From assembly GCF_038502225.1 (NCBI RefSeq), contig NC_091353.1, positions 2,304,116-2,368,115 of the forward strand: a stretch of 64,000 nucleotides of DNA, in the 5' to 3' direction. Of this stretch, positions 13,060-62,829 are shown piece after piece; the stretch's first letter is position 1; every line of letters starts with the position of its first letter. Source of the DNA: Cherax quadricarinatus (Eukaryota; Arthropoda; Malacostraca; Decapoda; Parastacidae). The position numbers and the translations under genes were made by a program. Under the pieces are notes generated by a model. That model ran no database searches. It saw nothing but the letters and a program-made list of their open reading frames with translations, and was not told where the DNA came from.

Positions 13060-13480
13060 AACTTGGAGTCTCATCTTAGAAGAAGGCACTTGTTTCTCAA
13101 AACCCCGTGCCTCGCCGTTCAAACTTGAGGCTCCCAGTTCTCGCTAGCTAATATGACCTAGTGTTTGCCTATATTAAAGACCTATTCCTACCTACATTAA
13201 GGTCTTAGGTCTACATTATTAATACCTACAGTTGTCTCAATAATTCTAATATTAGTTTACTAACAGTATAAGGTATCTACCTCTTCCTTGATGGGTAAAT
13301 CTATCAATTAAAATGTACCTTCCAACCACCTTCGCCAACCCAGGTGTATGTATGTGTTTTGGGTAGATGCGAGAGCCCGCAAAACTCAGACGGTCTATCT
13401 GTGAAATGTTAGGGCTTTCATATGGCTTATTTACCTTGTGGAACTTAGGACTGAATAAGTTCCAACAGTGGAAATCATTT
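13060..13480 (+). repeat. Unclassified dispersed repeat, copy 1
   Basis: About 420 bp strongly similar, in the same orientation, to 41765-42175 (shared landmarks: CTAGTGTTTGCCTA, TACCTACAGTTG, CAACCACCTTCGCCAAC, GAACTTAGGAC-GAATAAGTTCC). No ORF, no clear terminal repeats. Confidence 0.75.
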
Positions 13481-16649: not shown

Positions 16650-18446
16650 GAGTTTACCTGGAGGGAGTTCCGGGGTCAACGCCCCCGCGGCCCGGTCTGT
16701 GACCAGGCCTTCTGGTGGATCAGAGCCTGATCAACCAGGCTGTTGCTGCTGGCTGCACGCAAACCAACGTACGAGCCACAGCACAGCTGGTCAGGAACCG
16801 ACTTTAGGTGCTTGTCCAGTGCCAGCTTGAAGACTGCCAGGGGTCTGCTGGTAATCCCCCTTATGTATGCTGGGAGGCAGTTGAACAGTCTCGGGCCCCT
16901 GACACTTATTGTATGGTCTCTTAACGTGCTAGTGACACCCCTGCTTTTCATTGAGGGGATGGTGCATCGTCTGCCAAGTCTTTTGCTTTCGTAGTGAGTG
17001 ATTTTCGTGTGCAAGTTCAGTACTAGTCCCTCTAGGATTTTCCAGGTGTATATAATCATGTATCTCTCCCTCCTGCGTTCCAGGGAATACAGGTTTAGGA
17101 ACCTCAAGCGCTCCCAGTAATTGAGGCGTTTTATCTCTGTTATGCGCGCCGTGAAAGTTCTCTGTACATTCTCTAGGTCGGCAATTTCACCTGCCTTGAA
17201 AGGTGCCGTTAGTGTGCAGCAATATTCCAGCATAGATAGAACAAGTGACCTGAAGAGTGTCATCATGGGCTTGGCCTCCCTAGTTTTGAAGGTTCTCATT
17301 ATCCATCCTGTCATTTTTCTAGCAGATGCGATTGATACAATGTTATGGTCCTTGAAGGTGAGATCCTCCGACATGATCACTCCCCAGGTCTTTGACGTTG
17401 GTGTTTCGCTCTATTTTGTGGCCAGAATTTGTTTTGTACTCTGATGAAGATTTAACTTCCTCGTGTTTACCATATCTGAGTAATTGAAATTTCTCATCGT
17501 TGAACTTCATATTGTTTTCTGCAGCCCACTGAAAGATTTGGTTGATGTCCGCCTGGAGCCTTGCAGTGTCTGCAATGGAAGACACTGTCATGCAGATTCG
17601 GGTGTCATCTGCTAAGGAAGACACGGTGCTGTGGCTGACATCCTTGTCTATGTCGGATATGAGGATGAGGAACAAGATGGGAGCGAGTACTGTGCCTTGT
17701 GGAACAGAGCTTTTCACCGTAGCTGCCTCGGACTTTACTCTGTTGACGACTACTCTCTGTGTTCTGTTAGTGAGGAAATTATAGATCCATTGACCGACTT
17801 TTCCTGTTATTCCTTTAGCACGCATTTTGTGCGCTATTACGCCATGGTCACACTTGTCGAAGGCTTTTGCAAAGTCTGTATATATTACATCTGCATTCTG
17901 TCTGTCTTCTAGTGCATTTAGGACCTTGTCGTAGTGATCCAATAGTTGAGACAGACAGGAGCAACCTGTTCTAAACCCATGTTGCCCTGGGTTGTGTAAC
18001 TGATGGGTTTCTAGATGGGTGGTGATCTTGCTTCTTAGGACCCTTCCAAAGATTTTTATGATATGGGATGTTAGTGCTATTGGTTTGTAGTTCTTTGTTG
18101 TTGCTTTACTGCCCCCTTTGTGGAGTGGGGCTATGTCTGTTGTTTTTAGTAACTGTGGGACGACCCCCGTGTCCATGCTCCCTCTCCATAGGATGGAAAA
18201 GGCTCGTGATAGGGGCTTCTTGCAGTTCTTGATGAACACGGAGTTCCATGAGTCTGGCCCTGGGGCAGAGTGCATGGGCATGTCATTTATCGCCTGTTCG
18301 TAGTCATTTGGCGTCAGGATAACATCGGATAGGCTTGTGTTAATCAAATTTTGTGGCTCTCTCATAAAAAATTCATTTTGATCTTCGACTCTCAGTCTGC
18401 TTAGCGGCTTGCTAAAAACTGAGTCATATTGCTGTCATCTGTGTAG
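16650..18446 (-). pseudogene. LINE-A copy 1, 5'-truncated, RT frame broken
   Basis: Minus-strand non-LTR RT. Frame 18365-17343 holds APGPDSWNSVFIKNC, GFRTGCSCLSQLL, YTDFAKAFDKCDH and VPQGTVLAPILFLILI, with the catalytic box reading LADD (usually FADD in this family). Frame 17380-16676 holds the thumb and C-terminal part (LVLSMLEYCCTL, RGPRLFNCLP). A single extra C near 17383-17386 causes the break. Near the 5' end, 28 bases are missing relative to other copies. The 3' tail is CCAGGTAAACTCC. It abuts at 18446/18447 a plus-strand copy, giving a head-to-head pair. Confidence 0.9.
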
Positions 18447-20457
18447 TCACACAACCCAGGCAACATGTGTTCAGAAAAGGTCACTCCTGCCTTTCCCAAC
18501 TACTGGACCACTATGACAAGGTCCTGGATGCTCTAGAAAACAAACAGAAAACAGATGTTGTATACACAGATTTTGCAAAAGCCTTTGACAAGTGCGACCA
18601 TAGTGTAATAGCACAGTGTGCTAAGCGCACAAAATGCGTGATAATAAGGACTAACAAGGACAGTTGGAAGATGGATATATAAATTCCCAACAAATAGAAC
18701 ACAAAGAGTAATGTTAAACAGAATAAAATCTGAGGCAGCTACTGTGGAAAGCTCTGTTCCACAAGGCGCAGTACTCGCTCTCATCCTGTTCCTCATCCTC
18801 ATATCTAACAGTGACAGGGATAACAGCCACAGCACCGTAATATATACAGACTTTGCAAAAGACTTCGACAAGTGTGACCATGGCGTAATAGCGCACAAAA
18901 TGCGTGCTAAAGGAATAACAGGAAAAGTCGGTCGATGGATCTATAATTTCCTCACTAACAGAACACAGAGAGTAGTCGTCAAAAGAGCAAAGTCCGAGGC
19001 AGCTACGGTGAAAAGCCTGTTCCACAAGGCACAGTACTCGCTCCCATCTTGTTCCTCATCCTCATATCCGACATAGACAAGGATGTCAGCCACAACACCG
19101 TGTCTTCCTTTGCAGATGACACCCGAATCTGCATGACAGTGTCTTCCATTGCAGACACTGCAAGGCTCCAGGCGGACCTCAACCAAATCTTTCAGTGGGC
19201 TGCAGAAAACAATATAAAGTTCAACGATGAGAAATTTCAATTACTCAGATATGGTAAACATGAGGAAATTAAATCTTCATCAGAGTACAAAACAAATTCT
19301 GGCCACAAAATAGAGCGAAACACCAACGTCAAAGACCTGGGAGTGATCATGTCGGAGGATCTCACCTTCAAGGACCATAACATTGTATCAATCGCATCTG
19401 CTAGAAAAATGACATGATGGATAATGAGAACCTTCAAAACTAGGGAGGCCAAGCCCATGATGACACTCTTCAGGTCACTTGTTCTATCTAGGCTGGAATA
19501 TTGCTGCACACTAACAGCACCTTTCAAGGCAGGTGAAATTGCCGACCTAGAAAATGTACAGAGAACTTTCACGGCGCGCATAACGGAGATAAAACACCTC
19601 AATTACTGGGAACGCTTGAGGTTCCTAAACCTGTATTCCCTGGAACGCAGGAGGGAGAGATACATGATTATATACACCTGGAAAATCCTAGAGGGACTAG
19701 TACCGAACTTGCACACGAAAATCACTCACTACGAAAGCAAAAGACTTGGCAGACGATGCACCATCCCCCCAATGAAAAGCAGGGGTGTCACTAGCACGTT
19801 AAGAGACCATACAATAAGTGTCAGGGGCCCGAGACTGTTCAACTGCCTCCCAGCACACATAAGGGGGATTACCAACAGACCCCTGGCAGTCTTCAAGCTG
19901 GCACTGGACAAGCACCTAAAGTCAGTTCCTGATCAGCCGGGCTGTGGCTCGTACGTTGGTTTGCGTGCAGCCAGCAGCAACAGCCTGGTTGATCAGGCTC
20001 TGATCCACCAGGAGGCCTGGTCACAGACTGGGCCGCGGGGGCGTTGACCCCCGGAACTCTCTCCAGGTAAACTCCAGGTAAACCGTGTCTTCCTTTGCAG
20101 ATGACACCCGAATTTGCATGGCAGTGTCCTTCATTGAAGACACTGCAAGACTCCAGGCAGACATCAAAAAAATCTTTAAATATGCCGCAGAAAACACTAT
20201 GATGTTCAATGATGAGAAATTTCAATTACTCCGATATGGAAAATATAAGGAAATTAAAACTATATTGAGTATAAAACATATTCTAACCACACAATAGATC
20301 GAAAAACTAATATAAAAGACATGGGAGTGATAATGTCAGGGGATCTCACTTTCAATGAAAACAACATTGTATCAATCGCATGTGCTAGAAAAATGACAAT
20401 GAATATTGAGAACCTTCAAAACGAGGGATGCCAAGCCCATGATGGCACCCTTCAGGG
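18447..20457 (+). pseudogene. Older LINE-A relative, split by a younger LINE-A insertion
   Basis: Segments 18447-18839 and 20083-20457 form one diverged RT copy on the plus strand. The first part reads LSQLLDHYDKVLDALENKQK and VPQGAVLALILFLILISNSD; the second resumes with SSFADDTRICMAVSF. They are separated by the 18841-20082 copy. The bases ACCGT at the left edge (about 18834-18838) recur at 20083-20087, consistent with a short target duplication. The copy decays after about 20457. Confidence 0.8.
18841..20082 (+). pseudogene. LINE-A copy 2, nested inside an older LINE-A relative
   Basis: 5'-truncated copy starting in the RT at YTDFAKDFDKCDH. A 1-nt deletion near 19017 shifts the frame inside VPQGT. 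SSFADDTRICMTVSSI is intact at about 19110-19155. TGG/GGA context at 19415-19417 now reads TGA, a nonsense change. From 19424 the frame continues to the C-terminus (20047). It ends with the doubled tail CTCCAGGTAAACTCCAGGTA. Confidence 0.9.
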
Positions 20458-25879: not shown

Positions 25880-28800
25880 TCAACGCCCCCGCGGCCCGGT
25901 CTGTGACCAGGCCTCCTGGTGGATCAGCGCCTGATCAACCAGGCTGTTGCTGCTGGCTGCACGCAAACCAACGTACGAGCCACAGCCCGGCTGATCAGGA
26001 ACTGACTTTAGGTGCTTGTCCAGTGCCAGCTTGAAGACTGCCAGGGGTCTGTTGGTAATCCCCCTTATGTGTGCTGGGAGGCAGTTGAACAGTCTCGGTC
26101 CCCTGACACTTATTGTATGGTCTCTTAACGTGCTAGTGACACCCCTGCTTTTCATTGGGGGGATGGTGCATCGTCTGCCAAGTCTTTTGCTTTCGTAGTG
26201 AGTGATTTTCGTGTGCAAGTTCGGTACTAGTCCCTCTAGGATTTTCCAGGTGTATATAATCATGTATCTCTCCCTCCTGCGTTCCAGGGAATACAGGTTT
26301 AGAAACCTCAAGCGCTCCCAGTAATTGAGGTGTTTTATCTCCGTTATGCGCGCCGTGAAAGTTCTCTGTACATTTTCTAGGTCGGCAATTTCACCTGCCT
26401 TGAAAGGTGCTGTTAGAGTGCAGCAATATTCCAGCCTAGATAGAACAAGTGACCTGAAGAGTGTCATCATGGGCTTGGCCTCCCTAGTTTTGAAGGTTCT
26501 CATTATCCATCCTGTCATTTTTCTAGCAGATGCGATTGATACAATGTTATGGTCCTTGAAGGTGAGATCCTCCGACATAATCACTCCCAGGTCTTTGACG
26601 TTGGTGTTTCGCTCTATTTTGTGGCCAGAATTTGTTTTGTACTCTGATGAAGATTTAATTTCCTCATGTTTACCATATCTGAGTAATTGAAATTTCTCAT
26701 CGTTGAACTTCATATTGTTTTCTGCAGCCCACTGAAAGATTTGGTTGAGGTCCGCCTGGAGCCTTGCAGTGTCTGCAATGGAAGACACTGTCATGCAGAT
26801 TCGGGTGTCATCTGCAAAGGAAGACACGGTGCTGTGGCTGACATCCTTGTCTATGTCGGATATGAGGATGAGGAACAAGATGGGAGCTAGTACTGTGCCT
26901 TGTGGAACAGAGCTTTTCACCGTAGCTGCCTCGGACTTTACTCTGTTGACGACTACTCTCTGTGTTCTGTTAGTGAGGAAATTATAGATCCATCGACCAA
27001 CTTTTCCTGTTATTCCTTTAGCGCGCATTTTGTGCGCTATTACGCCATGGTCACACTTGTCGAAGGCTTTTGCAAAGTCTGTATATATTACATCTGCATT
27101 CTTTTTGTCTTCTAGTGCATTTAGGACCTTGTCGTAGTGATCCAGTAGTTGAGACAGACAGGAGCGACCTGTTCTAAACCCATGTTGCCCTGGGTTGTGT
27201 AACTGATGGGTTTCTAGATGGGTGGTGATCTTGCTTCTTAGGACCCTTTCAAAGATTTTTATGATATGGGATGTTAGTGCTATTGGTCTGTAGTTCTTTG
27301 CTGTTGCTTTACTGCCCCCTTTGTGGAGTGGGGCTATGTCTGTTGTTTTTAGTAACTGAGGGACGACCCCCGTGTCCATGCTCCCTCTCCATAGGATGGA
27401 AAAGGCTCGTGATAGGGGCTTCTTGCAGTTCTTGATGAACACAGAGTTCCATGAGTCTGGCCCTGGGGCAGAGTGCATGGGCATGTCATTTATCGCCTGT
27501 TCGAAGTCATTTGGCGTCAGGATAACATCGGATAGGCTTGTGTTAATCAAATTTTGTGGCTCTCTCATAAAAAATTCATTTTGATCTTCGACTCTCAGTC
27601 TGGTTAGCGGCTTGCTAAAAACTGAGTCATATTGGGACTTGAGTAGCTCACTCATTTCCTTGCTGTCATCTGTGTAGGACCCATCTTGTTTAAGTAGGGG
27701 CCCAATACTGGACGTTGTTCTCGATTTTGATTTGGCATAGGAGAAGAAATACTTTGGGTTTCTTTCGATTTCATTTATGGCTTTTAGTTCTTCCCGCGAT
27801 TCCTGACTCCTAAAGGATTCTTTTAGCTTAAGTTCGATGCTTGCTATTTCTCTGACCAGTGTCTCCCTGCGCATTTCTGATATATTGACCTCTTTTAGCC
27901 GCTCTGTTATTCTTTTCCGTCGCCTGTAAAGGGAGCGCCTGTCTCTTTCTATTTTACATCTACTCCTCCTTTTTCTTAGAGGAATAAGCCTTGTGCATAC
28001 ATCGAGTGCCACCGAGTTAATCTGTTCTAGGCATAAGTTGGGGTCTGTGTTGCTTAGTATATCTTCCCAGCTTATATCGGTTAGGACTTGGTTTACTTGG
28101 TCCCACTTTATGTTTTTGTTATTGAAGTTGAATTTGGTGAATGCTCCCTCGTGACTAGTCTCATTTTGTCGGTCTGGGGCTCCACGCATACATGTCTGAA
28201 CCTCAATTATGTTGTGATCTGAGTATATTGTTTTTGATATGGTGACATTTCTTATCAGATCATCATTGTTAGTGAAGATGAGGTCTAGTGTATTCTCCAG
28301 TCTAGTAGGCTCTATTATTTGCTGGTTTAAATTGAATTTTGTGCAGAGATTTAAAAGCTCGTGTGAGTGTGAGTTTTCATCAGAGCTGCCTCCTGGTGTT
28401 ATTACTGCAACAATATTATTTGCTATATTCCTCCATTTTAGGTGCCTTAAGTTGAAATCCCCCAGGAGCAAGATGTTGGGTGCAGGAGCTGGAAGATTTT
28501 CCAGACAGTGGTCAATTTTTAACAGCTGTTCCTGGAATTGCTGGGATGTTGCATCCGGAGGCTTGTAGACTACCACAATGACTAGGTTTTGGTTCTCGAC
28601 CTTTACTGCTAAAACTTCCACTACGTCATTTGAGGCATTAAGCAGTTCTGTGCAAACAAGTGACTCTGCAATGTACAGGCCAACCCCCCCCTTTTGCCTG
28701 TTCACTCTGTCACATCTGTATAGGTTGTAACCTGGGATCCATATTTCGTTGTCCAAGTGATCCTTTATGTGGGTCTCAGTGAAAGCCGCGAACATTGCCT

Positions 28801-28972
28801 TTGCCTCTGCAAGCAGTCCACGGATGAAAGGTATTTTGTTGTTTATTGCTGGCTTTAGACCCTGTATATTTGCAAAGAAGAATGTTATCGGACTGGTGGT
28901 ATTGTTGGTACTGGGGGGGGATTTTTTTTCCGGCATTAGTATCTGTATCTGTTGGTTTGGAGTGGAGGCCAT
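25880..28972 (-). CDS. LINE-A ORF2: endonuclease-reverse transcriptase (intact)
   Basis: 1030 codons from ATG at 28972 (a GTG 15 bases upstream is not a plausible eukaryotic start). N-terminal apurinic-type endonuclease, about residues 25-260: ANIQGL, the catalytic FTETHI, KGGVGLYI, LLLGDFNLRHLKW and SDHNII (Asp at about residue 252). RT about residues 450-760: APGPDSWNSVFIKNC, SHIIKIFERVLR, GFRTGRSCLSQLL, YTDFAKAFDKCDH, VPQGTVLAPILFLILI and catalytic SSFADDTR (Asp pair at about 721-722). The C-terminal domain has LEYCCTL and RGPRLFNCLP. No stop or frameshift, so it could encode an active enzyme that nicks DNA and reverse-transcribes LINE RNA. Translation probably depends on reinitiation after ORF1. 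Confidence 0.93.
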   Translation of the reverse strand: MASTPNQQIQILMPEKKSPPSTNNTTSPITFFFANIQGLKPAINNKIPFIRGLLAEAKAMFAAFTETHIKDHLDNEIWIPGYNLYRCDRVNRQKGGVGLYIAESLVCTELLNASNDVVEVLAVKVENQNLVIVVVYKPPDATSQQFQEQLLKIDHCLENLPAPAPNILLLGDFNLRHLKWRNIANNIVAVITPGGSSDENSHSHELLNLCTKFNLNQQIIEPTRLENTLDLIFTNNDDLIRNVTISKTIYSDHNIIEVQTCMRGAPDRQNETSHEGAFTKFNFNNKNIKWDQVNQVLTDISWEDILSNTDPNLCLEQINSVALDVCTRLIPLRKRRSRCKIERDRRSLYRRRKRITERLKEVNISEMRRETLVREIASIELKLKESFRSQESREELKAINEIERNPKYFFSYAKSKSRTTSSIGPLLKQDGSYTDDSKEMSELLKSQYDSVFSKPLTRLRVEDQNEFFMREPQNLINTSLSDVILTPNDFEQAINDMPMHSAPGPDSWNSVFIKNCKKPLSRAFSILWRGSMDTGVVPQLLKTTDIAPLHKGGSKATAKNYRPIALTSHIIKIFERVLRSKITTHLETHQLHNPGQHGFRTGRSCLSQLLDHYDKVLNALEDKKNADVIYTDFAKAFDKCDHGVIAHKMRAKGITGKVGRWIYNFLTNRTQRVVVNRVKSEAATVKSSVPQGTVLAPILFLILISDIDKDVSHSTVSSFADDTRICMTVSSIADTARLQADLNQIFQWAAENNMKFNDEKFQLLRYGKHEEIKSSSEYKTNSGHKIERNTNVKDLGVIMSEDLTFKDHNIVSIASARKMTGWIMRTFKTREAKPMMTLFRSLVLSRLEYCCTLTAPFKAGEIADLENVQRTFTARITEIKHLNYWERLRFLNLYSLERRRERYMIIYTWKILEGLVPNLHTKITHYESKRLGRRCTIPPMKSRGVTSTLRDHTISVRGPRLFNCLPAHIRGITNRPLAVFKLALDKHLKSVPDQPGCGSYVGLRAASSNSLVDQALIHQEAWSQTGPRGR

Positions 28973-29725
28973 CGACTGTGGTTCCACTCCAGGAATGACT
29001 GGATTTGGTGTACGATTTCTGCCATTTCCTGCCAGTTTTTTTTTCTTCCTGGCACTAAAAAACCTCTCCCTCTTGAGTGGCTGTGGCTACCCAGGTTTTC
29101 CCATGGCCTGGATGTTTTGTATCTTTTTGTCCCCTTTAGATGGTATGCCTGGCAATTTAAGTTATAGCACAGTCTTTCCTGTACTGAAGAGGTACACATT
29201 TCAGGGTGAAAAAGCTTACAGGAAGGGAGTTTGCATTTTCCTGTTGTCATATGGGCATGACATTTTCTAGGGTGGTCATAGTTGCATGTCCCATCTGTTT
29301 TTCCAGATTTCCCATGCCAGCAGATACCAAGTGCATAGTATGTGCACAGGCTTGGTTTCCGTTTGCCTTGGGTTTCTGTGACTGTATTCCCTGTTGGTGC
29401 ATGTTTCCCTGTCTTATTCCTATCCTCCTTAGCACCAACAATGGAGCTCCCACCAGTTGTTTTTGGTAATTTATCCTCACTATTGCTATTGGAGTCCTCT
29501 TGTTTGCTATTTCCTGCGGTATTTCTGGTTTGCAATATTGGTTTTATCTTATCTTTGACTACACTTGTTTCCCTACTATGGCTCCTGTCCTCTATGAGGT
29601 CATTTATATGTATTCCTTCCTGCGTATAATTCCCGACTACCTGGACAAAATCTCCAGCTTCACCATTACTGTCTCCCAGGACAATATCTCCAACTTCACC
29701 ATTTCTGTCTCCCAGGACAGTATTT
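28936..29725 (-). CDS. LINE-A ORF1: CCCH zinc-finger protein (5' truncated)
   Basis: About 262 codons open from the truncation point near 29725 to the stop at 28936-28938. N-terminal part: an acidic tandem motif (VLGDRNGE / VLGDSNGE), then a Ser/Asn/Lys-rich linker. Three cysteine-histidine units follow in 29346-29140: C-x7-C-x11-C-x3-H, C-x8-C-x4-C-x3-H and C-x8-C-x4-C-x3-H. The last two fit the CCCH type found in RNA-binding proteins. The C-terminus is basic (SRGRGFLVPGRKKNW). By position it is the RNA-binding ORF1 protein of the LINE. The usual ORF1 domains I know (CCHC knuckles, RRM, esterase, coiled coil) are not apparent. No ATG is left near the 5' end, so this copy is probably not translated normally. 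Confidence 0.75.
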
Positions 29726-34429: not shown

Positions 34430-35339
34430 TATTAGTCATACAGAGGTGCAACTTGTCCTGTAAACATAAGAAACAGTAGCAGCACAATACTAAATATCAA
34501 TCAGCTTGATTAATTATAAGAATGTCATGGTGAGTTACCTACTGATATGCGCCTCTTATCTTCCCAAGGTTACTTATAGATGCACATCTTGTATGCTCTT
34601 AGGCCACCTACACCAGGCTTGTAGTAATTACTTAATTCAACGTTCATCACAATCACATGTTATATTTACAATTATTTAATCAGAAAAATAACAATTTACA
34701 GTTACATTTACTTAATAATTTATATTAAATTATTTTCATCAATTACCTGAAAATTTACTAATGTTGAAATCATTGTTAAATGTTCGAAATAATAGACGAA
34801 CATGAATGGTAATTAAATGTGAGTACGTGAACATTGCACAATATTATATTAATTACATTTTCGATTGCAGTCAAACATGTTGAACATAAGCATCACTTTG
34901 GTTACACTAAATTAGTAAAAAAACAGGAAGATGACAACTAATTGGGCTTCGTTGCACATAATATACTTTATTGTGGTGGATCTTAGACACAGTGTTTAAT
35001 AATTATTTTTTTTTCATTCAATACAATTTAAATAAGAAAACTGGACCTAAAGGCTCAGGAAAATTACAAGAAATGTTGCATTGAATTGTTACAGAAAGTT
35101 ACCAGTGACTTATTTAACAGCGTGATTAACAATAATGAAAATATTATTGACTTTAATGATACACGACAACTGACGTAAGTTCACAAATTACGGATCATGG
35201 AAAGTGCTCATAAATTTCTCGATTACATATAATAACATTCACGGAAGACTCCAGGCTCAAGCTGCGCCCTGTTGGTGTATACCAAATTTCTGTTATTACA
35301 AAGGTTCTCTCTGATGGTGCTGCAGTGGCTGTGCAATCC
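34430..35339. other. AT-rich spacer, nothing recognised
   Basis: No ORF, RNA gene or repeat that I can support. Confidence 0.5.
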
Positions 35340-35426
35340 ATTATTTCTCTTGTAATAAAGTTGGTAGAATTACCGACAATATGTAAAGTAAAAGGACACA
35401 AGTGCAACTAATGTGACATTTTATTG

Positions 35427-35463
35427 TGGCAACGTTTCGCTCTCCAGGAGCTTTATCAAGCCA
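35427..35463 (-). ncRNA. Hammerhead-ribozyme-like motif, PLE-1 left arm
   Basis: On the minus strand: TGGC, core TTGATAAA, stem II GCTC-CTGGA-GAGC, then GAAACGTT and GCCA. Helix I (TGGC/GCCA) and helix II pair perfectly. AATAAA follows four bases later. Compared with the hammerhead core CUGANGA...GAAA, position 3 is U and position 8 is A, so that pair is conserved in kind; one extra A precedes stem II. Activity is not shown. Confidence 0.5.
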
Positions 35464-35740
35464 TTACAAACAGTACATGGACACAGAGGGTATATATAGG
35501 CTCAGAGTGAGGTGCAATACTAGTGGTAGTAGTAGTAGTAGTAGTAGTAGTAGTGACAAAAGTTGTAGTAGTAGTAGTAATACAATATGGTAGAGCAATT
35601 AATTCGTACGTGAGTAAAAGGATATAAAAGCTATTACTTGGGTAACATAAAAATAGGTTGGACAAATATAGACTGGATAGAGGCAGGTTGTTTCAGTGTT
35701 CACTCTCTGTAATGTGCTTTGTGTAGTATAACAGGAGAGA

Positions 35741-36690
35741 CTATGTGATGGCAGGGTTTACTGTTTTCAGGAGGATTCTTGCTAAGACTTCGGAGATGGT
35801 GAAGCTGCCGTTGTTTTGTTTAATTGTATTCGAAACAGCGATCAGTGCTGATTCGAGGCACTTGCCTCTGCGGAAATTAGTTTCTTTGATCACTAATTGG
35901 GCGTCTCTGAATTTCATGAGATGATTGGTGGAATTTCGGTGTTGTACACAGGCGTTGTTCAAGTTATCGTTCCTACATGCGTAAATGTGTTCATTGAGGC
36001 GGGTGTCGAGGTTTCTTGCTGTTTCACCTACGTAAATCTTGTCACAGCCTCCACAGGGTATAGTGTAAACTCTTGCGTTGACTGGTTCGTGGTACTTTGA
36101 TTTTGTCCTGGTTAGATTCTTTATTGAAGTGCTAGAAGCGATGGCGACTCTGGTGTTAGCTTGTGAAAGTACTTTAGAAACGTTCAGTGCAACCTGGCTG
36201 TTGGGAAGAATTATAACTTTGTTGGGAGTTGTGTTGGTGCGTGGAGAATTAATGATCTGAAGAGCTCTTTTCTTGCAGTCTTTGATGAAAAAGGAAGGAA
36301 AATGTAATTCAGTGAATGTTTGGTGAATGTATGTACATTCCTCGTCAAGAAACTCAGGACTACAAATTCGGTATGCTCTTAGGAAAAACCCGATGATGAT
36401 GCCTCTTTTGGTCTTGGTATCTTGACTGGAATAGAAGTGTGTGAGATCATTTTTATTGGTAGGTTTCCGATAAACTTGAAATCTTAGATTGTTGTCTACT
36501 TTGTGAATGAGGACATCGAGGAAAGGTAGCTTGTCATTGGACTCTTCTTCTAGTGTAAACTGGATCGCCGGTTCAACTGCGTTGAGCCTTGCCTGAAGAT
36601 TCCGTACATCAAAACGTTTGGGAGTTATTACGAGGACGTCGCCCACGTAACGTAACCAAGTGACGCTTGAAGGGAATAGGCAGTGCTCCA
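35741..36690 (-). pseudogene. PLE-1 left arm: RT palm end + GIY-YIG endonuclease, truncated
   Basis: About 316 codons open. Starts within the RT at MEH-type text next to the arm junction, then LRYVGDVLVI, the catalytic box in which the first Asp of the usual Y-x-D-D is Gly. Next come QFTLEEESNDKLPFLDVLIH and YRKPTNKNDLTHFYSSQDTK (RT thumb region), a linker, and a C-terminal GIY-YIG nuclease: VYTIPCGGCDKIYVGETARN with the catalytic-type Arg and EHIYACRN. The combination RT + GIY-YIG identifies an endonuclease-bearing Penelope-like element. Truncated 5' and with a lost catalytic Asp, so not active. Confidence 0.85.
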
Positions 36691-37064
36691 CACAAACTAG
36701 CCGGAGTTCTTACCAAACATCTTTCCTGCCTTCTGGGGACCACCAGCCCCGCTCATCTTAAACACTCAGGCGACCTTCTCAACCGCATCCGAAACCTCTC
36801 CATCCGTAACAAGAAACTAAGCAGTTTGGACGTGACTTCCCTCTTCACAAAAGCACCTACCACAAAAGCCATCGAGGTTCTACGACGTAAAGTCAATCAG
36901 GACCTTAATCTTCTTCTACCTCCCGGAGATTTTGTTGACTTGATTGAACTCTATGTTAATTTCAACTGTTTTTCTTTTAATAACAAGCTCTACAAACAAA
37001 CCTACGGCATGGGAATGGGGTCCCCCATCAGTGCCGTCCTAGTCAACTTATACATGGAACACCT

Positions 37065-37353
37065 AGCCTGGTGGCTAAAGCTCCCGCTTCACACATGGAG
37101 GGCCCGGGTTCGATTCCCGGCGGGTGGAAACATTCGACACGTTTCCTTACACCTGTTGTCCTGTTCACCTAGCAGCAAATAGGTACCTGGGTGTTAGTCG
37201 ACTGGTGTGGGTCGCATCCTGGGGGACAAGATTAAGGACCCCAATGGAAATAAGTTAGACAGTCCTCGATGACGCACTGACTTTCTTGGGTTATCCTGGG
37301 TGGCTAACCCTCCGGGGTTAAAAATCCGAACGAAATCTTATCTTATCTTATCT
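37065..37353 (+). mobile_element. tRNA-derived SINE (family S, TCTTA tail) inside PLE-1
   Basis: Full-looking copy: GCCTGGTGGCTAAAGCTCCC (box A region), box B GCCCGGGTTCGATTCCCGGC at about 37102-37121, core GGGTGTTAGTCGACTGGTGT, CAATGGAAATAAGTTAGACA, tail (CTTAT)n. It splits the RT frame of PLE-1 and is absent from the mirrored arm, so it is younger than the PLE insertion. Confidence 0.92.
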
Positions 37354-37420
37354 CACTTGGTTACGTTAAGTGGACGACGTCCTCGTAATAACTCCCAAAC
37401 GTTTTGATGTACGGAATCTG

Positions 37421-37491
37421 ATGTAAGGACCTGCCTAGTATGGGCCAACAGGCCTGCTGCAGTGTTCCTCCATTCTTACGCTCTCTTATAA
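37421..37491 (-). mobile_element. Short SINE-like insertion in PLE-1
   Basis: About 70 bp absent from the mirrored arm and flanked by AATCT on both sides. On the minus strand it contains GCAGCAGGCCTGTTGGCCCA and AGGCAGGTCCTTACATC, shared with 15108-15172. Confidence 0.7.
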
Positions 37492-38621
37492 TCTTCAGGC
37501 AAGGCTCAACGCAGCTGAACCGGCGATCCAGTTTACACTACTAGAAGAAGAGTCCAATGACAAGCTACCTTTCCTCGACGTCCTCATTCACAAAGTAGAC
37601 AACAACCTAAGATTTCAAGTTTATCGGAAATCTACCAATAAAAATGATCTCACACACTTCTATTCCAGTCAAGATACCAAGACCAAAAGAGGCATCATCA
37701 TCGGGTTTTTCCTAAGAGCATACCGAATTTGTAGTCCTGAGTTTCTTGATGAGGAATGTACATACATTCACCAAACATTCACTGAGTTACATTTTCCTTC
37801 CTTTTTCATCAAAGACTGCAAGAAAAGAGCTCTTCAGATCATTAATTCTCCACGCACCAACACAACTCCCAACAAAGTTATAATTCTTCCCAACAGCCAG
37901 GTTGCACTGAGCGTTTCTAAAGTACTTTCGCAAGCTAACACCAGAGTCGCCATCGCTTCCAGCACTTCAATAAAGAATCTAACCAGGACAAAATCAAAGC
38001 ACCATGAACCAGTCAACGCAGGAGTTTACACTATACCCTGTGGAGGCTGTGACAAGATTTACGTAGGTGAAACAGCAAGAAACCTCGACACCCGCCTCAA
38101 TGAACACATTTACGCATGTAGGAACGATAACTTGAACAACGCCTGTGTACAACACCGAAATTCCACCAATCATCTCATGAAATTCAGAGACGCCCAATTA
38201 GTGATCAAAGAAACTAATTTCCGCAGAAGCAAGTGCTTCGAATCAGCACTGATCGCTGTTTCGAATACAATTAAACAAAACAACGGCAGCTTCACCATCT
38301 CTGAAGTCTTAGCAAGAATCCTCCTGAAAACAATAAACCCTGCCATCACATAGTCTCTCCTGTTATACTACACAAAGCACGTTACAGAGAGTGAACACTG
38401 AAACAAGCTGCCTCTATCCAGTCTATTTTTGTCCAACCTATTTTTATGTTACCCAAGTAATAGCTTTTATATCCTTTTACTCATGTACGAATTAATTGCT
38501 CTACCATGTTGTATTACTACTACTACTACAACTTTTGTCACTACTACTACTACTACTACCAATAGTATTGCACCTCACTCTGAGCCTATATATACCCTCT
38601 GTGTCCATGTACTGTTTGTAA

Positions 38622-38658
38622 TGGCTTGATAAAGCTCCTGGAGAGCGAAACGTTGCCA
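38622..38658 (+). ncRNA. Hammerhead-ribozyme-like motif, PLE-1 right arm
   Basis: TGGC-TTGATAAA-GCTC-CTGGA-GAGC-GAAACGTT-GCCA, identical to the left-arm motif. It lies about 270 bases after the ORF stop, followed by ATAATAAAATGTC. Same structural comments as for 35427-35463. Confidence 0.5.
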
Positions 38659-38719
38659 TAATAAAATGTCACATTAGTTGCACTTGTGTCCTTTTACTTT
38701 ACATTATTTCTCTTGTTCA

Positions 38720-39195
38720 TTTCTTCAGAGGAAGCATTTATGGAGAAGAATCCATCCAATAAACCAAATCCAGCACAATCCCAATGTATATACTATTTAA
38801 AAACTTCTTCTAGTTTAGAAGTGGGTGATTTTGCCTCCAACTGAAGAGGAAATGCGCCAGAAAAAAGTTGGAGCCTCTTCCGTAGATTTGGCTTAGACTC
38901 AGATGATTCTTCCTTTTGGACCATTTCACACTATGTTTCTTCATTCTCAGATTCGCTTGCAGCAAAAATCGTGATATCTTGAAGCACTTTTTTTTTTTTT
39001 TTATCTTTTGACGGAAGACAAATCGGCTTGAAACAAACCGCTGCCGATCTTCAAAAACGGAATAAGTCATCGTTACTTTGCTTCATGCACGTCTTTGGCC
39101 AAAGTTTTACAGTGAGACAGATTAGTATCTAGTAGTTGCTGGGTGGACTGATGTAATCCAGTGATTACGAGTTCATTTGTTGAGATGGTGACCAT
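38720..39195. other. Spacer with nothing recognised
   Basis: Contains a T-run at 38989-39002. No supported gene or repeat. Confidence 0.45.
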
Positions 39196-39204
39196 TTTTC
39201 TGAT

Positions 39205-39830
39205 TTAGAAAAACACTTAAGCAAACACTAGGCCATATTTATTGGGAAATATTTCGGTCCTGAGACCTTGATCACTTCTAACATACAGAACAGATCAGAG
39301 GACTCACAGGTAAGGACCCACGAGGGGCGAGGGGCAAGTGGGGACAGTGCGAAGGATAGACGGTGAGAGGAATGTATTGAGTTTTTAACATACAGAGGTT
39401 AAAAGACAGTATATATAGACGGTGAGTGAGGTGTGAGTGACGCATAGTGACCTGAAGAATGTCATATTGGGATGAGGACGGGTAGACGATGAGATCATGT
39501 GACTCCTGTGTTGTTGGGTAGGTGCTGCTTTGCCTAGTTGAGTATCATCTATCTTTATGTTACAGAAATTTTGTAGTTTCCAGTGTTAATCTTTATTGTG
39601 TCGGTGATGGTGATTAGCGCCTCTTCCAGACATCTTCGGCGTCTAAGGTCTTGTCCGGTAAGAACGAGTTGTGCTTCATCATGGTGACCTGGCATTCTTC
39701 AGGTCACCAAGCGTTGCTCACACCTCACTGTTTTAGCCTCTGTATGTTACAAGTGATCAAGGTTCCAGGAATGAATCTTTTGTAATAGATATGTCCTAGT
39801 GTTTGCTTACGTGTCGGTACGTGTCGGTAT
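39205..39830 (-). mobile_element. PLE-3 remnant with mirrored ends
   Basis: Outer ends mirror each other: AAGCAAACACTAGGCCATAT (39209-) and CCTAGTGTTTGCTTACGTG (near 39798). On the minus strand, about 39660-39555 reads CLEEALITITDTIKINTGNY, matching the PLE-1 C-terminus (CLESALIAVSNTIKQNNGSF). So it is a deleted PLE. Each end has a hammerhead-like core with GTGATCAA. Confidence 0.7.
39244..39279 (-). ncRNA. Hammerhead-like motif, G-C core variant (PLE-3)
   Basis: Minus strand: GTGATCAA, stem II GGTC-TCAG-GACC, then GAAATATT, with CAATAAAT a few bases on. Positions equivalent to 3 and 8 are G and C. A more decayed mirror (GTGATCAA, GGTTCCAGGAAT, GAATC) lies on the plus strand at 39753-39776. 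Confidence 0.4.
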
Positions 39831-40216
39831 TTATCACCAAGGTTTTTACCATATCAAAGATATGTATACATGCGCAAATGCATACATGCTGTACATATGT
39901 ATATAAATACATAAGTTAATATTTTGCTGCATTAGAATTTTATCCCCACCCTGCACTATTCCTTTTGCTTGATTTGAGGTAGAGGAGACTGAGATTATGG
40001 AATATGGGGATACTTTTCTAAGATCCTGCAGCAACTGAACGACATATAGTTCTGTCTTAAATTTCAATCAATGCTTGATTACAGTAGATCGATATAAAAT
40101 TATACTTTCGGTAATATGCTGTTGATGTTAAGAGAAACTTAAGATAACAGTAATGTGTGCCCATAAATAAACCTGTGGTTGAGATAACTGAAAGGAGTGA
40201 TGATAACATATTAGTG

Positions 40217-40320
40217 CCAGGTCCCAGCTAGGCACTGACACTCTCCCAGCCAGGCCAGCCAGGCACTGACACTCTCCCAGCTAAGCCAGGACACTGCCAG
40301 CCAGGCACTGACACACTCCC
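40217..40320. repeat. Short tandem repeat upstream of AKR gene B
   Basis: The phrase AGGCACTGACACTCTCCCAG occurs twice, with a third partial unit (AGGCACTGACACACTCCC). It ends about 85 bases before the ATG, so it lies in the promoter or 5' UTR of gene B. No TATA box or certain initiator is visible. Confidence 0.7.
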
Positions 40321-40405
40321 GTGATCACCACCCTCACACACCTCTCCTCTCTACTGCTGGTATTATCATCATCTGACATTATTACAGTCAAGTAAGAGTA
40401 CCAGG

Positions 40406-60584
<20,179 letters not shown>

Positions 60585-60716
60585 GTTGGTACTCATACTT
60601 ATTTTACCACCTCTAATAATTTATTTTTTTAAAAATTCTGTAGACATTATAAAGGTTAATAATAGTAATGCAGTTAAGTAAAAAGAAACAAGCGCAACTA
60701 ATTCGACATTTTCTTT

Positions 60717-60819
<103 letters not shown>

Positions 60820-60927
60820 AACAAAATATCAAAGGAAGGCATATAAAGGGTCAAGACTACACCTCACCATCACATCCCACAATAAAGATACACCTCACAC
60901 ATGCGTGACGACACGCGACTCTGTCAA

Positions 60928-60977
60928 ACCTGGAGTTTACCTGGAGAGAGTTCCGGGGGTCAACGCCCCCGCGGCCC
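60928..60977 (-). mobile_element. 50-bp LINE-A tail insertion
   Basis: ACCTGGAGTTTACCTGGAGA ... GCCCCCGCGGCCC is just the last 50 bases of LINE-A, placed inside the left end of PLE-2. The mirrored end lacks it. Confidence 0.9.
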
Positions 60978-61678
60978 ACCTAATACCCTACCCAAATAAC
61001 TCATTGTCTTTTCTAGATGTTTTAATTATTAAGGGTACCAATGGCTTTAAATTTAGAATTTACAGAAAACCTACAAATAACTGTTCCTATGTCCACTATT
61101 ATTCTTCACATCAAGATACAATTCAACTGTTGGTTTTCTCATCAATGTTTTTGACAGATTTACGTATTTGTAATCTAGAATTCGTATATAAAGAAACATC
61201 CAAAATTTATGAAATAGCTAGTGATCTAAAATACCTATGAAACGTAATTGATAAATGTTATAAAATTGCTAGAAATACTTTTTACAATCCAAAAAGGGAC
61301 AACCAACTTTATTTAACTAAAAATATGTTGGTTCTCCCTTACCATGAAAACTTAGTTGATATGCCTTCTCTTCTTAAGACTTTTAATATTAAAGTTGTAT
61401 TTAAAAATCTTGATACAGTAAAAAAAACTTTTGATAAAGAATTCCCCCCAAAATGCTGATGGATGTGTCTATAAGATTCCTTGCAAAATTTGCGATAAAG
61501 TTTATTACGGTCAAACTGGTAAAAATCTCGAACTAAGATTAAAACAACATAAATATAACATCAGAACTGGACAAGATTCCAATGCTCTATTTATTCATGT
61601 GAGATATTTTAGCCATCCAATTGATTTTCAAAAAGTTGAGAAAGTTGTATCAAGCAATTCCATGGTCGACAGGAATAT

Positions 61679-62829
61679 TACCTGGAGTTTACCTGGAGAG
61701 AGTTTCGGGGGTCAACGCCCCCGCGGCCCGGTCTGTGACCAGGCCTCCTGGTGGATCAGCGCCTGATCAACCAGGCTGTTGCTGCTGGCTGCACGCAAAC
61801 CAACGTACGAGCCACAGCCCGGCTGATCAGGAACTGACTTTAGGTGCTTGTCCAGTGCCAGCTTGAAGACTGCCAGGGGTCTGTTGGTAATCCCCCTTAT
61901 ATGTGCTGGGAGGCAGTTGAACAGTCTCGGGCCCCTGACACTTATTGTATGGTCTCTTAACGTGCTAGTGACACCCCTGCTTTTCATTGGGGGGATGGTG
62001 CATCGTCTGCCAAGTCTTTTGCTTTCGTAGTGAGTGATTTTCGTGTGCAAGTTCGGTACTAGTCCCTCTAGGATTTTCCAGGTGTATATAATCATGTATC
62101 TCTCCCTCCTGCGTTCCAGGGAATACAGGTTTAGAAACCTCAAGCGCTCCCAGTAATTGAGGTGTTTTATCTCCGTTATGCGCGCCGTGAAAGTTCTCTG
62201 TACATTTTCTAGGTCGGCAATTTCACCTGCCTTGAAAGGTGCTGTTAGAGTGCAGCAATATTCCAGCCTAGATAGAACAAGTGACCTGAAGAGTGTCATC
62301 ATGGGCTTGGCCTCCCTAGTTTTGAAGGTTCTCATTATCCATCCTGTCATTTTTCTAGCAGATGCGATTGATACAATGTTATGGTCCTTGAAGGTGAGAT
62401 CCTCCGACATAATCACTCCCAGGTCTTTGACGTTGGTGTTTCGCTCTATTTCGTGGCCAGAATTTGTTTTGTACTCTGATGAAGATTTAATTTCCTCATG
62501 TTTACCATATCTGAGTAATTGAAATTTCTCATCGTTGAACTTCATATTGTTTTCTGCAGCCCACTGAAAGATTTGGTTGATGTCCGCCTGGAGCCTTGCA
62601 GTGTCTGCAATGGAAGACACTGTCATGCAGATTCGGGTGTCATCCGCAAAGGAAGACACGGTGCTGTGGCTGACATCCTTGTCTATGTCGGATATGAGGA
62701 TGAGGAACAAGATGGGAGCTAGTACTGTGCCTTGTGGAACAGAGCTTTTCACCGTAGCTGCCTCGGACTTTACTCTGTTGACGACTACTCTCTGTGTTCT
62801 GTTAGTGAGGAAATTATAGATCCATCGAC
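61679..62829 (-). mobile_element. LINE-A copy 9, nested in PLE-2
   Basis: 5'-truncated, almost identical to the 25.8-kb copy. It ends 5' at CCATCGACCGA (62829), after which PLE coding resumes. The 3' tail begins ACCTGGAGTTTACCTGG on the plus strand. Confidence 0.93.
61712..62829 (-). CDS. LINE-A ORF2 C-terminal fragment (intact frame)
   Basis: About 370 codons without stop: SVPQGTVLAPILFLILI, catalytic SSFADDTRICMTV, LLRYGKHEEIKSSSEY, LEYCCTLTAPFKAG, RGPRLFNCLPAHIRG, end SQTGPRGR. No start codon belonging to the LINE, no upstream palm or endonuclease; not functional. Confidence 0.85.

Follow-up and report, generated by a model that had tools for sequence, protein, structure and literature searches.

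Along the window, i.e., the whole stretch of 64,000 nucleotides of Cherax quadricarinatus DNA analysed here, we have found nine sites that are probably hammerhead-like motifs placed at what are likely the ends of Penelope-like retroelements (PLEs). Our prediction is that they act as minimal ribozymes of type I, cleaving the RNA of the element as dimers or with the assistance of its protein, and their 3-8 pair, which can be U-A, C-G or G-C, is never mismatched. The 3-8 pair is part of the active site of the hammerhead. The sites and the associated retroelement features are listed in Table 1.

Table 1. Hammerhead-like sites and retroelement features found in the window.
Feature	Position	Strand	Core first base	Description
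Site A1	38620..38664	+	38626	Motif same as A2; U3-A8; 3' of the GIY-YIG frame; AATAAA after
Site A2	35421..35465	-	35459	TGGC - TTGATAA - A - GCTC..GAGC - GAAACGTT - GCCA; U3-A8; helices I and II intact
Site A3	59208..59252	+	59214	TTGACAA, U3-A8; older relative of A; helix I broken, 1/4
Site B1	47812..47857	-	47851	TGAC - TTGATAA - A - GCCCAC..GTGGGC - GAAACATT - GTCA; U3-A8; helices I and II intact
Site B2	48056..48101	+	48062	TTAATAA (G5 lost); 3-8 still U-A; helix I intact; mismatch in helix II
Site C1	44101..44146	-	44140	CTGAAGA, C3-G8; helix II 6 bp; helix I 3/4
Site C2	44531..44576	-	44570	Same as C1 letter for letter; direct repeat of 171 nt without differences, 430 bp apart
Site D1	39239..39281	-	39275	GTGATCA, G3-C8; helix II GGTC/GACC; helix I 2/4
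Site D2	39747..39788	+	39753	GTGATCA, G3-C8; GAAT replaces GAAA; decayed
PLE ORF in left arm (insert A)	35741..36709	-		GIY-YIG at C-terminal side, 22.8 bits (cut-off 22.6)
PLE ORF in right arm (insert A)	37439..38353	+		GIY-YIG, 27.1 bits (cut-off 22.6)
Reverse transcriptase frame piece, insert A	36664..37182	+		Weak: RVT_1 18.2 bits (cut-off 29.6, not reached)
Flanking repeat of insert A (15 bp), left copy	35339..35353			15/15; likely target-site duplication
Flanking repeat of insert A (15 bp), right copy	38702..38716			15/15
AATAAA and tail of A2	35363..35425	-		CGGTA..TACC hairpin-type end; A1 is without that end
AATAAA and tail of B2	48096..48157	+		Contains CGGTATTTTATACC
AATAAA and tail of C2	44475..44535	-		Contains CGGTATTTTATACC
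AATAGA and tail of D2	39784..39838	+		Contains CGGTATTTATCACC

Nine sites in four families

The nine sites are not nine independent cases. A1 and A2 are the arms of a single head-to-head insert and are 98% alike over an ungapped stretch of 1028 nt, while B1/B2 and D1/D2 are the two copies of outward-facing pairs whose arms match in 91/104 and 64/77 columns, respectively. Since C1 and C2 belong to one repeat and A3 is a relative of A, we have treated the sites as four families (A to D).

The core letters that the first-pass annotation had assigned were correct at all nine sites, its minus-strand coordinates being the low end of each motif. It had also pointed out one extra A before helix II and a helix III reduced to ACGU: the extra A is found in 9/9 sites, and between GAA and the cut the helix III of a type I hammerhead is reduced to ACGT or to a related string. 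The ACGU, which is self-complementary, is intact in five of the nine (A1, A2, B2, C1 and C2). As for the order that had been described, helix I, core, helix II, GAAA and helix I again, the layout is indeed of the hammerhead type, but it is incomplete, with all four pairs of helix I present only in A1, A2, B1 and B2 (3/4 in C, where the mismatch is the inner one, 2/4 in D1 and 1/4 in A3) and with GAAT in D2.

Residues U4, G5, A6, A9, G12, A13, A14, A15.1, U16.1 and H17 are all intact in 7/9 sites, the exceptions being B2, without G5, and D2, on account of its GAAT. Only A1, A2 and B1 have the core and helices I and II all intact, and these three are U3-A8. Read as letters, the C3-G8 of the consensus CUGANGA appears in just two of the nine sites (C1 and C2), with U-A in five and G-C in two; seven sites thus have a non-canonical 3-8 pair, and 3-8 is paired in 9/9.

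Descriptor and model searches

When the descriptor was strict, requiring GAAAC-N-T, a standard pair at 3-8 and no fewer than 4 bp in helix II, it identified six sites in the window; 60 dinucleotide shuffles averaged 0.12 and never exceeded one. The loose descriptor identified 27, where the same number of shuffles averaged 11.2 and reached 21 at most, and the pattern with AATAAA added gave four matches against none in 100 shuffles. A covariance model built from all nine sites recovered them with 36.5–58.3 bits, as expected for its own training set, and the next match in the window reached 12.8. When the model was trained on A and B alone, C1 and C2 were the top non-training matches (E 0.0031). 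D1 came at E 0.63, after two unrelated places, and D2 was absent from the 25 matches of this model. The case for D as a member leans on its tail and position.

It had been claimed that a strict CUGANGA search would miss these sites, and the Rfam hammerhead models do miss them: none of those families has a match in the window at gathering thresholds, and none of the 13 Rfam matches obtained over 35000-60000 with E up to 10 is a hammerhead. Folding of single strands gave helices I and II for A1 and B1, and other stems that use core letters for C1 and D1. Two-strand folds gave long duplexes, the active dimer not being obtained.

Two kinds of candidates were rejected. The string CTGATGA at 17441, 22466, 26644 and 62476 (+) and at 19283 and 56619 (-) belongs to near-identical repeats with no helix I pairing in the four core-adjacent positions, and D-like tails at 13150-13171 (+) and 41844-41865 (+) are short matches in a different repeat with no motif upstream. 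Outside the window, pattern searches yielded 2, 104 (80 among the matches listed) and 20 stretches in viral_contigs and 8 in genome_contigs. Of the 114 loci taken from the matches listed, 13 passed a filter of GAAACGT, TGA, A9 and a helix II of at least 4 bp, and none of them had four contiguous helix I pairs together with a standard 3-8 pair. A PLE protein scan of viral_contigs gave seven pattern matches and no relative. In the protein database 21 relatives were found.

Probable retroelement context

The location of the motifs at PLE termini, already proposed in the first-pass annotation, holds up as likely, as indicated by the tail that they have in common, the GIY-YIG frames of family A, the 15-bp flanking repeat and the inverted arms. 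The GIY-YIG frames run in the same sense as the motif, and the closest protein to that of the right arm comes from Cherax quadricarinatus itself (94% identical). Insert A is flanked at both sides by CATTATTTCTCTTGT, with a score of 30 (random flank pairs have a median of 12, with 18 and 22 at 95% and 99%). The flanks of B contain a longer imperfect match, also above random (score 25), those of A3 match in 11/13 with a score of 16 that random flanks reach too, and those of D have no repeat (score 12). The termini are inverted in A, B and D and form a direct repeat in C.

In the alignment of all nine sites, the tail common to the four families contains an invariant TGC and GTGT. AATAAA (AATAGA in D2) is found no more than about 8 bases after the predicted cut in 8/9 sites, B1 being the exception. 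The tail of the CGGTA-hairpin type is present at only one of the two ends of each insert (A2, B2, C2, D2 and the left end beside A3). Given the common tail, and the outward-facing inverted pairs in which B and D are arranged like A, we infer that B, C and D are PLE ends as well.

The inserts at 35339-38716, 47775-48157 and 39213-39838 are head-to-head pairs with both tails outward, an arrangement that fits an in vitro result for the Anolis Poseidon PLE motif PAc, namely that extension proceeds from both strands of the target (PMC11167929). A-type PLE tails without a motif upstream were detected at 58962-59006 (-) and 60673-60715 (-); the first of them lies opposite A3 and forms with it an outward pair, of which it is the left end. 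There are TATA-like strings 39 bases before the core in A1 (38587-38593, +), mirrored before A2, and 45 bases before the core of B2 (48017-48023, +), so that a transcript could start just before the motif in these sites; none was found within 60 bases before the core in the other six. Insert A also includes, at 37059-37360 (+), a likely SINE with a tRNA-like head (Rfam tRNA, 20.2 bits, below its cut-off of 29) and a repetitive end. By eye, pieces of the C-terminal region of another diverged PLE-like element can be recognized at 61451-61700 (+) and 61000-61240 (+), with a broken frame, and 60821-61240 had no Pfam match.

Possible covariation of the 3-8 pair

All eight distinct rows of the alignment have a standard pair at 3-8 (five U-A, two G-C and one C-G), so the three pairs that had been described for these positions are all present. 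The structure as a whole is supported: 84.1% of the cells are paired, compared to 64.1% (sd 3.9) in shuffles, none of 500 being as high, and when the structure was slid along the alignment the values were between 31.0 and 59.4%. The covariation score was 0.545 versus 0.261 in shuffles (0/500). Two of the five alignment measures were not above shuffles, namely the pair changes at both sides (5 versus 3.3, equalled in 50/500) and the further pair types (8 versus 8.0, 333/500).

The rows of the alignment are related, and for this reason we have taken one well-kept copy per family (A1, B1, C1 and D1, leaving out A2, A3, B2, C2 and D2) for a permutation at the family level. Over these four families, 3-8 alone gave 0.083, helices I and II gave 0.005 and 0.009, respectively, and all pairs together gave 0/20000. 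For 3-8 the value became 0.033 with the row of the Anolis PLE (PAc) added and 0.034 with six window rows, i.e., adding A3 and B2. At the family level 3-8 alone is not significant from the window sites and is weak also with PAc included, and the covariation is suggestive, not proved. The natural series of core-swapped hammerheads that had been announced stands as regards the pairing in 8/8 rows and the PLE context; on the other hand, U3-A8 had already been published and G3-C8 is a single decayed family. G3-C8 is the most novel part of the series and yet the weakest, with two poorly paired copies of one family.

Alternative explanations

Old copies of an ordinary C3-G8 motif could have mutated at positions 3 and 8, with the pairing left by chance. 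U-A would be the easiest double change, C-to-U and G-to-A being both common transitions, and A3, B2 and D2 are plainly decayed, while the 3-8 pairing at the family level has the chance value of 0.083 given above. We nevertheless regard this decay as rather unlikely, because the otherwise intact sites A1, A2 and B1, from two families, are all U-A and their source elements likely carried it. In addition, the intermediates U-G or C-A, the half-way cores, appear in none of the nine sites, and transitions alone cannot make G-C. The conservation of U4, G5, A6, A9 and GAAA amid changing helix letters, together with the 3-8 pairing, would be left unexplained if the stem and GAAACGTT had been conserved as a signal for recognition or RNA processing next to the polyadenylation-type AATAAA, and not for cleavage. 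Such a signal seems improbable to us, even considering that AATAAA or AATAGA is that close in 8/9 sites and that in PAc the ribozyme mutants left insertion in vitro unchanged and no reads end at the cut (PMC11167929).

That these are chance matches to a short motif is hardly credible, and for A, B and C the results already contradict it. It is true that the loose descriptor finds places beyond the nine sites (27 in total) and that repeats place D-like tails without a motif at 13150 and 41844, but the strict descriptor found 6 sites where shuffles gave at most 1 in 60, the pattern with AATAAA gave 4 versus 0/100, and the tail is common to all nine. We retain the reading as hammerhead-like motifs at likely PLE ends.

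Comparison with known hammerheads and proposed mechanism

Minimal PLE hammerheads, such as those of Cervera and de la Pena in 2014 and Lunse in 2017, reportedly cleave as dimers. In the available parts of two reviews, they are described as type I, with a diminished helix III, and as able to cleave as dimers (PMC7761336, PMC6155905); our sites resemble them in type, in the reduced helix III and in being located in PLEs. The covariation of C3 and G8 to U3 and A8 has been described in several natural hammerheads, and cores with U3-A8 are active in vitro, according to the accessible text of a 2011 study (PMC3088659, 2011). The likeness to our sites is that 3-8 has changed as a unit to U-A; unlike them, those hammerheads are not placed in PLEs in that text, which makes no mention of G3-C8, whereas here the sites are at likely PLE ends and G3-C8 is present.

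The closest parallel in layout is PAc, which has the same order of elements and sits in the pseudo-LTR of a PLE (PMC11167929). As we interpret its printed sequence, it reads CUGAGGA, one U, helix II and then GAAACGUC, a layout equal to that of the window sites: A9 is separated from helix II by one extra base, and the ACGU is bare. There are also differences: the reading frame of PAc begins at helix II, unlike here, and its natural core is C3-G8, G3-C8 being a laboratory construct (PMC11167929), whereas our D sites carry G3-C8 naturally. In PAc, the change C3G combined with G8C restores cleavage partly; the motif cut only with protein, the mutants still inserted in vitro, no public reads end at the cut, and extension from both target strands was reported in vitro (PMC11167929). 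Insert A has in turn the layout of the Penelope elements of Adineta vaga, whose pLTRs are inverted, with a duplication at the flanks and, optionally, a tail on one of the two (PMC3846280, from the available part). The main text of that paper does not contain the term hammerhead, in contrast to the motif-bearing inserts of the window.

U3-A8 covariation (PMC3088659, in its accessible text) and the extra base with a tiny helix III (PMC11167929) are thus already known, as they appear in print in those papers. What is possibly new is the presence of U3-A8 in PLE motifs and of a G3-C8 family in nature. Neither a natural G3-C8 hammerhead nor U3-A8 in PLE motifs was found in the literature searched, and the absence is a weak one since the main PLE hammerhead work lies outside it.

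In the mechanism that we propose, the transcripts of the element would carry the motif in each terminal repeat, and cleavage is predicted after GAAACGUU (U17), with GAAACAUU as the equivalent in B1 and GAAAUAUU in D1. Two copies in one RNA might pair through the self-complementary ACGU and build between them the helix III that each one is missing. Alternatively, by analogy with what has been reported for the Anolis element, the protein of the element could hold the fold instead of a dimer. The 3-8 contact would need a Watson-Crick pair and not particular letters, so it could turn over as a unit wherever dimer or protein carries the fold. It can be speculated, though we regard it as less likely than not, that the pair in these PLE ribozymes does turn over in this manner, with U-A, C-G and even G-C carried by moving elements, that the dimer partner or the protein relaxes a core which elsewhere hardly varies, and that searches with CUGANGA overlook much of the class. 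As for the reading as hammerhead-like motifs at PLE ends, the ten core residues outside 3-7-8 that are kept in 7/9 sites while 3 and 8 vary support it, and the broken B2 and D2 and the absence of helix I in A3 oppose it. If retroelements had swapped 3-8 more than once and still cut, they would offer a natural series for geometry versus letters in the core. Natural families would also allow the relaxation of the core by a protein partner to be asked about, and the PLE hammerhead counts obtained with strict cores would be too low.

Other features of the window

An exon-like stretch of an aldo/keto reductase was found at 47395-47559 (+) (PF00248, 38 bits, cut-off 24), with further exons recognized by eye near 58764-58885 and 60484-60588. 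With the exons placed in this way, B2 and A3 would sit in introns of this gene in the sense orientation. The window also contains, at 25880-29086 (-), an open LINE frame (1068 aa) in which endonuclease and RT domains are recognized.
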